A DNA stretch of 64,000 nt from an uncultured Flavobacteriaceae bacterium (GTDB lineage: Bacteria; Bacteroidota; Bacteroidia; Flavobacteriales; Flavobacteriaceae): the NCBI GenBank assembly GCA_947502635.1, contig CANNAN010000008.1, forward strand, positions 1-64,000, in the 5' to 3' direction. Below the pieces are notes generated by a model. That model worked only from the letters and a program-made list of their open reading frames with translations, did not search any database and had not been told where the DNA came from. The translations under genes were made by a program, and so were the position numbers. Positions 8,159 to 13,322 of this stretch are shown here, in pieces (the stretch's first letter is position 1; every line of letters starts with the position of its first letter).

Positions 8159-11100
8159 TTATTTATTTCGAATTATTTTAACGTTCATTTCCTCTACTTT
8201 TTTATCAGACAAGGGAGAGGGAGAACCGAATAATAAATCTTCACTGGTTCCTGTTTTAGGGAAAGCCATAACCTCTCTAATAGATGCTTTTTTCTCTAAG
8301 ATCATCATCAGTCTATCAACACCCCAAGCAATACCACCGTGCGGGGGTGCTCCGTAATGGAATGCTTCATACATAGTACCAACGCTTTTGAGCATCTCTT
8401 CTTTATTGTAGCCCATATTCTTATAGGTTGCTTCAAGAATTTCTGGTTTATGAGCACGTACAGAGCCTCCTCCAATTTCGTAACCGTTTAAAATTAAATC
8501 GTATTGTTGTGCTATAATAGTTCCTATTTCGTCTTCTTTACCATCCATATGTTTATTAATATCATAGGTAGCAGGCATTGAAAAGGGATTGTGAGTAAAT
8601 GTCCAACGACCTTCATCTGTTTTTTCAAACATTGGGAAATCTACAACCCATGCAGGTCTTAGCTCCTTAGGGTTAATAAGTCGTAACATAGCTCCTAATT
8701 CTTGTCTTACAGCATCTAAAGCTTTATTCGCAGTTTCGTAATCTGCAGCAGAAAAGAATACAATATCTCCAACTTGAGCATGTGTAGTTTCAATAATTCC
8801 TGCAGCGATTTCTTCTCCTAAAAATTTAATAATTGGAGATTGTAAATCGGTTTCATTAACAATAATATAGGCTAAACCACCTAAGCCATGTTGTTGAGCT
8901 GTTGCGGTAAGCTTTTCAATCTGTCCTTTGGATAAACGTTTTTTACCCTGTTCTTCTTTAGATACTTTAATGCATTTTACAATACCGCCATCATCAATAG
9001 GTTTACTAAATACTTGGAATGTCGTTTCTTTTACAATTTCGGTAATATCTTGCATTTGTAATCCAAAACGTAAATCAGGTCTGTCGCAACCATATTTATC
9101 CATGGCATTTTTATAAGTAATCACTTCAAACGGATGCAAAATCCATTTTTTACCATAAACTTTAGAAACAATCTCATTGAACATTTTGGTGTTCAGATCT
9201 ATAATTTGTTGCATACTTGCGTATGCCATTTCAATGTCTAATTGTGTAAATTCTGGTTGACGATCGCCACGAGAATCTTCATCTCTAAAACAACGCGCTA
9301 TTTGGAAATATTTCTCATAACCACTAACCATCAAAATTTGTTTGAATTGTTGAGGTGCTTGTGGTAACGTATAAAAAGAACCTGCTTTTTTTCTGGTAGG
9401 GACAATAAATTCTCTAGCACCTTCGTCTGTACCAGCAGTTAAAATAGGAGTCTCTACTTCTATAAATTCTTGTTCATCTAAAATATCACGCATCAATTTA
9501 ATCACTTTATGGCGATTAATCATAGCTTTACGAACAGCTTCATTTCTATGATCTAAATATTTGTATTGAAAACGCACAGATTCGTTTGTTTTTGTAGCTC
9601 TTTTGATTTCGAAAGGCAAGGTTTTAGATAGGTTTAATATATCTAAATCGGATGTTTCTAATTCTATAGTTCCTACTCTAAGAGATGCATTATAATCATC
9701 TTCTTTACGTTGCACAACAGTTCCTGTAACTGTGATTACCGATTCTGGTTTTAACTTAATAAGATCGTCTAGGTTCGCAAAAGATTCTCTACTTAAACGT
9801 ACTTGAAAAATTTCGTTACTCGAATCGCGTAAATCGATAAACATTAATTCACCATGGTCACGCACACTAGATACCCAACCCGCAAGTGTTACTTTTTCTG
9901 AAATAGAGCTTTCAGATAAATCAGATATTTTATGCGTTCTGTATTCTTCTTTAATAATTAACGGAACTTCTGGAAGTATTTCTTCTTCGGTAGTTTTTAG
10001 CTCTTGGTTATTAGCTTTTTGTGTAGAAGCTTCGTTTGTATTGGATTTTTCATTTCCTACGCCTTCATTATTCGCAACAGCATCCAAAATACCCTGACGG
10101 ATTACTTTTCCTGAAGCACCTTTACCTATAATGGCAATTACTTTACCAACAAGAATACCTGCTTTTCCTTGATTGCCGCCTCTAATATCACTGGCAACTG
10201 CTTCATTTTCGGAAATTACTTTTTGAATAGCATCTTCAATCTGAGATTCGGAGATAGTATTGTCTTCAAAATACTTATTATAATTAAAACTTCTATCTTT
10301 TAAATATGAAGTAATAGCATTTTGAACTAGTACCGATGTTATTTTTTCATCTTTAAAAAGTTGGAATATTTCAATAAGATGTTCTATCCTATGTATATCG
10401 GCATAATCATCAGCTCCAATATTATTTACTAATGTTTTAGCAACAAAAGACGGATCTTTAATTTTGTTATTAATAGCAACAAAAGTCTCCGAACGTAAAG
10501 AATCTGCTGTAAAGAATTTTGCATCTTGTGGTAATACACCACCTTTAATTAAAATCGATTCAACGGCATAAGGAAGTGTGCTTAAATCGACATCGATAGC
10601 TTCAACAACTTCTTTAATATTTACAAAAGGTAAATCAGGCTCAGAGATAAATCTATAGTCAGCTTCAAACTCTTTTTTACGCATGGTTTTGGTTTGCTTC
10701 AATTCAGCATCCCATAACACCGTGGTTTGGTCTGGTCGAAACTCTTTGTGCTCTAAAAAGTAGTTTAATTGTTTTTCAATTTCCTCTTTTAAAGCATCCA
10801 CCATGAACTTGAACGAGTTTAAGTTTTTTATTTCGGTACGCGGATTTAAATTGTAATCGTGTTTTTTACGAAGTGATACTGAGACATCCGATTTAAACTC
10901 ACCTTTTTCAAGATTAGCCTCCGATATTTTTAAATTTTGAACAATACGTTGAATGTATTGTGCATAGGTAGAAGCATCTTCGATATGACGAATACAAGGT
11001 TCTGTAACAATTTCAATAAGTGGTACGCCTGCTTTATTAAAATCGACTAAAGAGGTTTTCTTTTCGTGCATCAATTTAGCAGCATCCTCTTCTATATGAA

Positions 11101-11503
11101 CTTGCGTTAAGTTTACAGTAAACTGTGATCCATCATTACGGTAGCATGATACTTGTCCGTCGGGAATCACAGGATTATGAAACTGTGTAATTTGTATATT
11201 TTTTGGATTATCTGGATATTCGTAGTGCTTGCGGTCCCAAGAAATCACATCATTTTCAAAAGTTGATTTTACAGCTTTACCAAAGTAAATAGCTTTGTTA
11301 ATGGCTTCTTTATTAATAGCTGGTAAAACGCCCATTTGTCCCGTACAAACCGAACATATATTTTCGTTTGGGGTATCTATCTCTTGATTAGGGCAAGAAC
11401 AAAATAACTTGGTTTTAGTATTTAACCGAACATGAGTTTCTAGTCCAATTACCAATTCTAATTCGTGCGCTTTTAAAGCTTCATTTAATTGTTCTAATTC
11501 CAT
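8159..11503 (-). CDS. gatB/aspS: GatB-AspRS fusion: amidotransferase subunit B joined to aspartyl-tRNA synthetase
   Basis: One 1114-residue frame joins two enzymes. Residues about 1-487 are GatB: a VIGLETHVRLNTKTKLFCSC start, zinc-type CSC/CSVC cysteines, and a YqeY-like tail ending KVIRQGILDAV. Residues about 488-519 are an Asn/Glu-rich linker. Residues about 521-1114 are a full bacterial-type AspRS: OB fold, class II motif 2 FQIARCFRDEDSRGDRQPEF, a GAD insert, and motif 3 GIAWGVDRL. In the OB fold, VRDHGELMF carries His550 where discriminating AspRS usually has Leu. His is the residue linked to non-discriminating AspRS that also charge tRNA(Asn). The product is inferred to make Asp-tRNA(Asn) and pass it to GatCAB for amidation. 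The start codon overlaps the gatA stop by one base. Confidence 0.95.
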   Translation of the reverse strand: MELEQLNEALKAHELELVIGLETHVRLNTKTKLFCSCPNQEIDTPNENICSVCTGQMGVLPAINKEAINKAIYFGKAVKSTFENDVISWDRKHYEYPDNPKNIQITQFHNPVIPDGQVSCYRNDGSQFTVNLTQVHIEEDAAKLMHEKKTSLVDFNKAGVPLIEIVTEPCIRHIEDASTYAQYIQRIVQNLKISEANLEKGEFKSDVSVSLRKKHDYNLNPRTEIKNLNSFKFMVDALKEEIEKQLNYFLEHKEFRPDQTTVLWDAELKQTKTMRKKEFEADYRFISEPDLPFVNIKEVVEAIDVDLSTLPYAVESILIKGGVLPQDAKFFTADSLRSETFVAINNKIKDPSFVAKTLVNNIGADDYADIHRIEHLIEIFQLFKDEKITSVLVQNAITSYLKDRSFNYNKYFEDNTISESQIEDAIQKVISENEAVASDIRGGNQGKAGILVGKVIAIIGKGASGKVIRQGILDAVANNEGVGNEKSNTNEASTQKANNQELKTTEEEILPEVPLIIKEEYRTHKISDLSESSISEKVTLAGWVSSVRDHGELMFIDLRDSSNEIFQVRLSRESFANLDDLIKLKPESVITVTGTVVQRKEDDYNASLRVGTIELETSDLDILNLSKTLPFEIKRATKTNESVRFQYKYLDHRNEAVRKAMINRHKVIKLMRDILDEQEFIEVETPILTAGTDEGAREFIVPTRKKAGSFYTLPQAPQQFKQILMVSGYEKYFQIARCFRDEDSRGDRQPEFTQLDIEMAYASMQQIIDLNTKMFNEIVSKVYGKKWILHPFEVITYKNAMDKYGCDRPDLRFGLQMQDITEIVKETTFQVFSKPIDDGGIVKCIKVSKEEQGKKRLSKGQIEKLTATAQQHGLGGLAYIIVNETDLQSPIIKFLGEEIAAGIIETTHAQVGDIVFFSAADYETANKALDAVRQELGAMLRLINPKELRPAWVVDFPMFEKTDEGRWTFTHNPFSMPATYDINKHMDGKEDEIGTIIAQQYDLILNGYEIGGGSVRAHKPEILEATYKNMGYNKEEMLKSVGTMYEAFHYGAPPHGGIAWGVDRLMMILEKKASIREVMAFPKTGTSEDLLFGSPSPLSDKKVEEMNVKIIRNK

Positions 11504-12905: not shown

Positions 12906-13175
12906 TTACTCTTCTATGACTTTAGAAACTACTAAAAATCCGTTTTTTTCGTTCGGGAAGTTTTCTTTGATGATTTGTTTTTCAATTGCAGAGCTTTCAA
13001 CAATGACATCATCTCTTAAATCATTTAAAGACACGGCATTATTATTAGCATTATTAAAAGAATTGTTATTTGTTGGATGTGCATTTTTAATGACATCAAA
13101 TAATTTACTAACCGCCTCAGAGGGTTCTGCTCCTTTAATACTCGACAATATGTCGACTGTCATAATTTTACTCAT
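12906..13175 (-). CDS. gatC: GatC-like subunit, atypical N-terminus
   Basis: The 89-residue protein has a recognisable GatC C-terminal half. LNDLRDDVI...IIKENFPNEKNGFLVVSKVIEE corresponds to the LREDxVxxxL...NAPxxxxGxFxVPxVIE pattern of the family. The N-terminal 45 residues do not show the usual LARLELSEEE helix. They end instead in an Asn-rich run with eight Asn between residues 36 and 46. GatC clamps GatA and GatB together. Its position as first gene of the operon, 2 bp before gatA, supports the call. The Asn run could itself slow translation when Asn-tRNA is scarce (inference). Confidence 0.75.
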   Translation of the reverse strand: MSKIMTVDILSSIKGAEPSEAVSKLFDVIKNAHPTNNNSFNNANNNAVSLNDLRDDVIVESSAIEKQIIKENFPNEKNGFLVVSKVIEE

Positions 13176-13193
13176 GTCTTAGATTTTTTGATT

Positions 13194-13226
13194 AAAAAAA
13201 GCCTTCCAAATTTGGAAGGCTTTTTT
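13194..13226 (-). terminator. Attenuator terminator in the gatC leader
   Basis: On the minus strand this reads A-run, GCCTTCCAAATTTGGAAGGC (a perfect 20-base palindrome), then seven T. It is a canonical intrinsic terminator. It lies between the operon promoter and gatC, ending 18 bp before the gatC start codon. No complete gene lies upstream for it to terminate, which marks it as an attenuator. Confidence 0.9.
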
Positions 13227-13241
13227 ATATTTTTAAACAAT

Positions 13242-13249
13242 AACCTTCC
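13242..13249 (-). promoter_or_regulatory. Candidate antiterminator strand
   Basis: GGAAGGTT (minus strand) can pair with AGCCTTCC at 13214-13221, the 5' arm of the attenuator terminator. That gives eight pairs including one G-U, and it competes with the terminator hairpin. It begins 5 bases past the leader stop codon, so a ribosome terminating there should cover it and favour termination. A ribosome stalled earlier on the Asn codons would leave it free. The pairing is seen in the sequence; the mechanism is inferred. Confidence 0.65.
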
Positions 13250-13253
13250 TATC

Positions 13254-13298
13254 CTAACAATTAGGATTATTGAAATTATTATTGTTGTTATTTATCAT
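13254..13298 (-). CDS. Asn-rich leader peptide of the gatCAB-aspS operon
   Basis: A complete small ORF encodes MINNNNNNFNNPNC, 14 residues of which nine are Asn, read from AAT and AAC codons. It starts 16 bp downstream of a TAnnTTTG -7 box and stops 27 bp before the attenuator terminator. Its last codons lie in a small hairpin: ATCCTAA/TTAGGAT, 13251-13267, with a 3-base loop. The layout matches amino-acid-biosynthesis leader peptides such as those of the his and phe operons. The downstream operon makes Asn-tRNA, so the codon choice fits the product. It is probably a regulatory peptide without function in trans. Confidence 0.85.
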   Translation of the reverse strand: MINNNNNNFNNPNC

Positions 13299-13314
13299 GT
13301 TTTTTTTATCTGTT

Positions 13315-13322
13315 CAAAGATA
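13315..13322 (-). promoter_or_regulatory. -7 promoter box of the gatCAB-aspS leader transcript
   Basis: On the minus strand this reads TATCTTTG, an exact TAnnTTTG match. Transcription would begin a few bases downstream, giving about a 10-base leader before the Asn-rich ORF. I see no convincing -33 TTG at standard spacing. Confidence 0.6.

Follow-up and report, generated by a model that had tools for sequence, protein, structure and literature searches.

A predicted asparagine-codon leader-peptide attenuator upstream of a gatC-gatA-gatB::aspS operon in Flavobacteriaceae

The gatC-gatA-gatB::aspS operon of this uncultured Flavobacteriaceae bacterium is preceded by a short leader that appears to be a ribosome-mediated transcription attenuator sensing Asn-tRNA(Asn) and controlling the operon, an interpretation to which we assign a probability of roughly 0.87 on the basis of sequence and modelled RNA folding. 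The features by which a leader-peptide attenuator is recognized, namely a codon-rich ORF (here Asn-rich), a terminator, an antiterminator computed to be exclusive with that terminator, and suitable target genes, are all present at this locus. The interpretation, first put forward in a preliminary description of the same DNA, is supported by anatomy, conservation, coding signature, gene context, and a predicted folding switch. The proposed mechanism is a known one, with a new amino acid (Asn) and a new target (gatCAB-aspS).

Every part that the preliminary description had named, from the promoter box to the terminator, is present on the minus strand where it had been placed in the window, by which we mean the whole 64,000-nt stretch of DNA that was analysed (Table 1). 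The element is about 115 nt long and consists mainly of the ORF and the terminator, which ends 18 nt upstream of the gatC start codon. Its promoter box matches TAnnTTTG, which we take to be the Bacteroidota -7 consensus, and a loosely matching box (one extra A/T tolerated) lies 14-23 nt 5' of the leader start in 41 of 42 distinct leaders, and 37 nt 5' of it in leader L109. The segment from 13190 to 13322 folds at -34 kcal/mol (z = -6.25), a value equalled by none of 200 dinucleotide shuffles. The window contains a single ORF of 25 codons or fewer with at least nine Asn, whereas 60 dinucleotide-shuffled windows contain none; with the threshold lowered to six Asn, the window still holds one such ORF, against 0.43 per dinucleotide shuffle.

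Table 1. Positions of the operon genes and leader elements in the window.
Feature	Position	Strand	Score or basis
gatB::aspS fusion gene, 1114 aa (GatB, residues 14-475; bacterial-type AspRS with GAD domain, residues 520-1112)	8159..11503	-	
gatA, 466 aa	11503..12903	-	Pfam Amidase 364 bits; NCBIfam gatA 426 bits (cut-off 481)
gatC, 89 aa, divergent; ATG at 13175	12906..13175	-	NCBIfam gatC 19.8 bits (cut-off 47.1)
Perfect intrinsic terminator, AAAAAAGCCTTCC AAATTT GGAAGGCTTTTTTT	13194..13226	-	conserved
GTTATTGTTT, complementary to the Asn codons, overlapping the end of the antiterminator strand	13235..13244	-	
Antiterminator strand GGAAGGTT, complementary to the terminator 5' arm	13242..13249	-	
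Small stop-codon hairpin CCTAA-TTG-TTAGG (CCTAA 13265-13261 / TTAGG 13257-13253)	13253..13265	-	
Leader ORF MINNNNNNFNNPNC, 14 codons, nine Asn, ATG at 13298, stop TAG	13254..13298	-	
Bacteroidota-type -7 promoter element TATCTTTG (TAnnTTTG)	13315..13322	-	sequence match

Judging from the promoter box, transcription would start about 10 nt 5' of the leader ATG. When Asn-tRNA is plentiful, the ribosome would pass the Asn codons, reach the TAG, and cover GGAAGG, upon which the terminator would form and transcription would end short of gatC. Under a shortage of Asn-tRNA, the ribosome would instead stall on the Asn run, and the exposed GGAAGGTT would capture the terminator's 5' arm, AGCCTTCC, ahead of synthesis of the 3' arm, so that RNA polymerase would go on into the operon. 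The fused AspRS, a second one with probably relaxed specificity, would make Asp-tRNA(Asn), which GatCAB would amidate, and this amidation would replenish Asn-tRNA and also, where the usual asparagine synthetase is missing from the cell, asparagine as such. We infer that translation of the leader, ribosome stalling, termination, and readthrough take place in the cell in this manner.

Masked folding of the 42 leaders, in which the ribosome was represented by keeping single-stranded all positions between 18 nt 5' and 13 nt 3' of the first A-site base, reproduces two predictions of the preliminary description, namely that a ribosome at the leader stop blocks the antiterminator strand and that one stalled on the Asn codons leaves it free. 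In the modelled partial transcript, the mean probability of the antiterminator is 0.97 while the A site lies between 13 and 3 codons from the stop, which covers a ribosome stalled in the main Asn run, 0.82 at two codons before the stop, and 0.07 (highest value 0.47) at one codon before it; with the ribosome at the stop it is 0 in 42/42. The value for L006 (0.17), an outlier in the masked folding, probably reflects an indexing artefact, as the first GAAGG there lies within TAGGAAGG. The partial transcript without a ribosome also favours the antiterminator (mean 0.95), so pairing of GTTATTGTTT with the Asn codons could act only as a kinetic block, if at all. For 38 of the 42 leaders the terminator prevails in the full-length RNA whatever the ribosome state; in the other 4 it drops below 0.5, and then only when the ribosome has reached the end of the Asn run. 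Because the terminator wins in the complete RNA, antitermination would have to be kinetic, with the decision falling ahead of 3' arm synthesis, and attenuators usually decide antitermination at this stage. In a contiguous-helix test, only 2 of 300 spacer shuffles gave a helix as good as the antiterminator of the window.

The leader alignment comprises 42 distinct copies after removal of duplicates (among them L053 and L080, copies of L006 and L013); L052, a chance match to a crude motif, was also left out. All 42 leader ORFs end in TAG, and each has an in-frame start 1-4 codons 5' of the first Asn codon (ATG in 41, GTG in L060). Across the nine mainly-Asn codons, 9 first bases, 17 second bases, and 44 third bases depart from the majority letter, and this drift, mostly at the third base, indicates that the Asn run is translated. 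An exception to the pattern is one Asn codon that reads CGT (Arg) in 7 of 42 leaders, with its first two bases changed. RNA pairing may be what conserves some of the Asn codons that hardly vary.

The covarying stems that the preliminary description had proposed looking for are seen at the top pair of the terminator, where both sides have changed in 15 of 42 leaders and the bases are unpaired in 5. The stop hairpin keeps its five pairs in 42/42, with a single double change from C-G to U-A. In the helices other than the antiterminator, double-change cells number 16, a count reached by 0/500 shuffles, and pairs with any double change number 2, a count reached by 156/500. All eight pairs of the antiterminator helix, GGAAGGTT with AGCCTTCC, are kept in 40/42 leaders and none shows a compensated change; as this helix is nearly invariant in the gatC set, covariation says nothing about it, and the covariation detected by RNAalifold is small because the functional strands barely vary.

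The conservation of the peptide bears on a different explanation, in which the leader and terminator are real and control is exerted by nascent-peptide stalling, a trans-acting short RNA, or RNA stability. The sequence F-N-N-P that follows the Asn run is almost invariant, which is more than codon sensing alone needs. However, RNA pairing can explain part of this constraint, with GGAA as the partner of the Phe codon and the stop hairpin as that of the Pro codon, although the invariance of the two Asn codons inside F-N-N-P is not explained in this way. Against this explanation, the number of Asn residues (7-10) and the residues neighbouring them vary among the 42 leaders, and the leaders found upstream of asnB (see below) have an Asn run but no F-N-N-P. 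We consider such control improbable, and codon sensing by a translating ribosome remains the preferred reading.

Known T-box elements offer a further comparison, as in these the uncharged tRNA binds the RNA directly. A T-box or small-molecule riboswitch reading tRNA-Asn or asparagine directly would not be without parallel, since T-box control of tRNA-dependent amidation in Clostridium acetobutylicum is cited in PMC4206432; there, as in the attenuator proposed here, tRNA charging controls transcription for tRNA-dependent Asn formation, but the sensor we propose is the translating ribosome. No Rfam family, T-box included, is matched at gathering score anywhere in the 64,000 nt, and the element, at this length, is made up mostly of ORF and terminator. 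In addition, the third-position drift of the Asn codons argues for translation and against a riboswitch, and the survey in PMC2494555 lists 0 T-boxes in 7 Bacteroidetes/Chlorobi genomes. A direct RNA sensor is highly unlikely. No phage record resembling the region was found.

The distribution of the element was examined in several sets of genomes, and the Asn ORF, as the preliminary description had suggested might be sought, recurs in relatives together with the antiterminator strand and the terminator. A GatA search of 60 genomes found relatives 83-88% identical in 11/11 other genomes of the same genus and in 3/25 other family genomes; the leader is present in 12/12 genomes of the genus, window included, and absent from the three other family genomes. 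The genus is probably Flavivirga, as L053, a locus titled Flavivirga amylovorans, covers the same DNA as L006 from a genome of this genus. In a scan of named genomes, limited to the 80 best of 163 loci, almost all of which have Flavobacteriaceae titles, 32 have the leader and 48 (two with little upstream DNA) have none. The leader-bearing loci are titled Flavivirga, Algibacter, Polaribacter, Mariniflexile, Hyunsoonleella, Flaviramulus, Confluentibacter, Snuella, Aestuariivivens, and Aestuariibaculum; within the same best 80 of 163, no leader was seen in the examined Flavobacterium, Lutibacter, Tamlana, Wocania, and Jejuia loci or in some of those titled Algibacter, Polaribacter, or Flaviramulus. 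R1, a covariance model built from the 42 leaders and run on 299 family genomes, matches 29 of them (the window, G157, and G203 included) at 102-135 bits, every match lying 5' of gatC, with a clear gap to the next-best match at 53 bits; at E up to 0.01 some match occurs in 133/299 genomes, and beyond the 29 none exceeds 53 bits among the matches listed.

A census of genomes with the operon gave the leader in 29/46 and none in 17/46. These 46 operon genomes are the 46 that carry the fusion gene, less G173 (no upstream DNA) and plus G157, which was counted although the fusion gene is absent from its assembly; G028 was counted among the leaderless. On a FastTree GatA tree of 91 rows with many weak branches, the leader state needs 10 changes against 30.2 in shuffles (0/500), and well-supported branches force only 3. 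From this tree L088 and L034 were left out as copies of L003 and L007, and L083 and L084 were scored leaderless despite having little upstream DNA. Because the leader state is clustered, it is largely inherited, with several losses or gains. A constitutive terminator behind a chance A-rich ORF, without any regulation, is favoured by the AT-richness of the region and by the relatives that have no element, but chance is excluded by the fold and ORF shuffles, and the 42 distinct copies with third-position drift and some covariation, together with this clustering on the tree, make the idea hardly credible.

The operon itself departs in one respect from the preliminary description, which had named a gatCAB-aspS operon: the gene content is as described, but aspS is not a separate gene and is fused to gatB. 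GatC is named mainly by its place because its NCBIfam score is below the cut-off. Among the matches listed, the GatB-AspRS fusion occurs in 46/299 family genomes (G203 with a fragment), and the remaining matches to the fusion protein cover the AspRS half only. A stand-alone AspRS is present in at least 10 operon genomes, including G001 of the window's genus, and the window's own genome gives two matches to the fusion-protein query. The fused AspRS has RDHG at a position where the stand-alone AspRS of G001 and G103 has RDKG; chains 4wj3_M and 4o2d_A have RDHG, and chain 1efw_A has RDLG. The His in RDHG is, we assume, a mark of non-discriminating AspRS. Residues 31-62 of GatC form an Asn-rich stretch (NNNSFNNANNN), found in leaderless relatives too and odd for an Asn-making enzyme; this stretch has a mean of 9 Asn in 32 residues (range 5-12) in the 71 of 95 loci where GatC was located.

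The preliminary description had pointed out that the codons sensed match the operon product, Asn-tRNA, and this logic is strengthened by the distribution of asparagine synthetases. AsnA is found in 0/46 operon genomes against 4/34 controls, and housekeeping-type AsnB (about 556 aa, with the match split near 385/437) in 0/46 against 32/34, the 34 controls having been hand-picked among near-complete genomes without the operon. One of the 32 AsnB-positive controls (G064) has a more distant AsnB, and both AsnB-negative controls have AsnA. Longer proteins of the AsnB family (569-642 aa) score above the cut-off in 16/46 operon genomes, and no protein of the family does so in the other 30, the window's included. 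In a less selected set, a housekeeping AsnB match occurs in 108/149 genomes, and none of these 108 is an operon genome. The absence of AsnA and housekeeping AsnB makes the operon look like a route of Asn biosynthesis, one that, as far as gene content indicates, stands in for the housekeeping asparagine synthetase. Housekeeping AsnB and GatCAB-AspRS are distributed in a complementary way, which speaks against these strains being asparagine auxotrophs.

GlnRS is present in 45/46 operon genomes, so GatCAB is not needed for Gln-tRNA, and 42/46 give a strong match to AsnRS (E 8e-160 or better). Those without one are G213, G261, G270 (99% complete), and G303 (76% complete, GlnRS missing too); the leader is absent in the first three and present in G303. 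Because AsnRS and GlnRS are mostly kept, the attenuator would be one of Asn biosynthesis, and the operon is best read as the Asn-biosynthesis route of these cells, with AsnRS alongside for imported asparagine. The tRNA-Asn, looked at in the window's genome only, has U1-A72, which bacterial GatCAB requires according to PMC4206432. The same source includes Bacteroidetes among the clades in which AsnRS, GlnRS, and GatCAB occur together and an Asn synthetase is missing. The arrangement resembles the dual routes it describes for Deinococcus, Thermus, and Bdellovibrio, in which AsnRS and GlnRS are kept and GatCAB serves for Asn without AsnA or AsnB, although the extra AspRS of Deinococcus-Thermus is, in that account, archaeal-type, whereas the one described here is of the bacterial type and forms a fusion with GatB.

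Leader-peptide attenuators are known in Enterobacteria at the his, trp, phe, leu, and thr operons and at pheST. The element described here resembles these in having repeated codons for the product in a short ORF, a terminator before the first gene, and an antiterminator covered when the ribosome is at the stop. It differs from them in its Asn codons, in its target, an operon for tRNA-dependent amidation in which GatB and AspRS are fused, and in its Bacteroidota-type promoter box and probably very short 5' UTR; moreover, only two alternative folds are clearly supported and the third, the Asn-codon stem, is weak. Within the same family, clues for leader-peptide attenuation at amino-acid biosynthesis operons have been reported for Flavobacterium psychrophilum, where this type of mechanism was proposed from transcript maps and asparagine is nowhere named in the main text (PMC9723704), and leader-peptide-like ORFs are mentioned for Bacteroides thetaiotaomicron in PMC7366714. 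The preliminary description knew of no Asn leader for a transamidation operon; a search of the open-licence literature likewise found none, nor any asparagine leader peptide or attenuator on gatCAB or asparagine synthetase genes.

Asn-rich leaders are also found upstream of other genes of asparagine supply. An Asn-rich leader ORF followed by a terminator lies 5' of asnB in 10/53 distinct genomes (L240-L244, L249, L250, L262, L215, and L218; an example peptide is MLLNNNNNNNNRMP), a proportion biased upward because 30 of the loci were chosen as those whose AsnB best matches that of a genome with such a leader; among the loci drawn from controls, 3/32 have one. Their antiterminators, from a contiguous-helix search, are only short (4-8 pairs), with 173, 42, 54, 101, 38, 10, 97, 2, 159, and 150 of 300 spacer shuffles as good. 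The asnB leaders are thus Asn-rich ORFs with terminators, in which a switch is weakly supported. About 100 nt 5' of asnB in G190, L216 has an ORF with four consecutive Asn codons and a stop hairpin, and no terminator was found behind this short ORF; it could be a translational variant.

Upstream of asnA, an Asn-rich leader with a terminator is present in 4/13 genomes (an example peptide is VIFNNNNNNFNNNLNQIRLRKAIIV). Two of these, L228 and L229 (G018 and G274, one genus), have two Asn-leader and terminator units in tandem within about 350 nt 5' of asnA, and the others, L230 and L233 (G398 and G486), come from one genus of another family in the same class. A GGAAGGCT-like strand, which pairs with the terminator arm of the same leader, is retained in the asnA leaders, and 0, 2, and 0 of 300 shuffles are as good in three of them (L229 left out). 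Common descent of the asnA, asnB, and gatC leaders was assessed with R1 and is not shown by it, as the asnA and asnB leaders score at most 48.5 bits, within the background set by unrelated terminators (53.2 bits in G181 and 51.4 bits in G141; 39.4 bits on the window antisense).

These leaders raise the speculative notion of an Asn-attenuation regulon across Bacteroidota, in which like leaders would sit on three unrelated sources of Asn (asnA, asnB, and gatCAB-aspS), those of asnA and gatC perhaps having one origin. In such a regulon the gatCAB leader would also report a backlog of unfinished transamidation, and hence glutamine supply, a signal that classical attenuators are not known to read, because the ribosome should accept Asn-tRNA and not Asp-tRNA(Asn). 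The lack of a leader in the three genomes G213, G261, and G270, which have no strong AsnRS match, would fit this idea, because the pathway is then always needed. We regard the proposal as tentative.

Finally, if the attenuator reading is correct, asparagine would join the amino acids known to have a leader-peptide attenuator, and tRNA-dependent amidation would be under ribosome-mediated control in a phylum for whose surveyed genomes PMC2494555 lists no T-box. It would also explain how asparagine is balanced in cells that use transamidation instead of the usual asparagine synthetase. The sequence model would mark a control region in many marine flavobacteria, and the leader would provide a natural reporter for the charging of Asn-tRNA.
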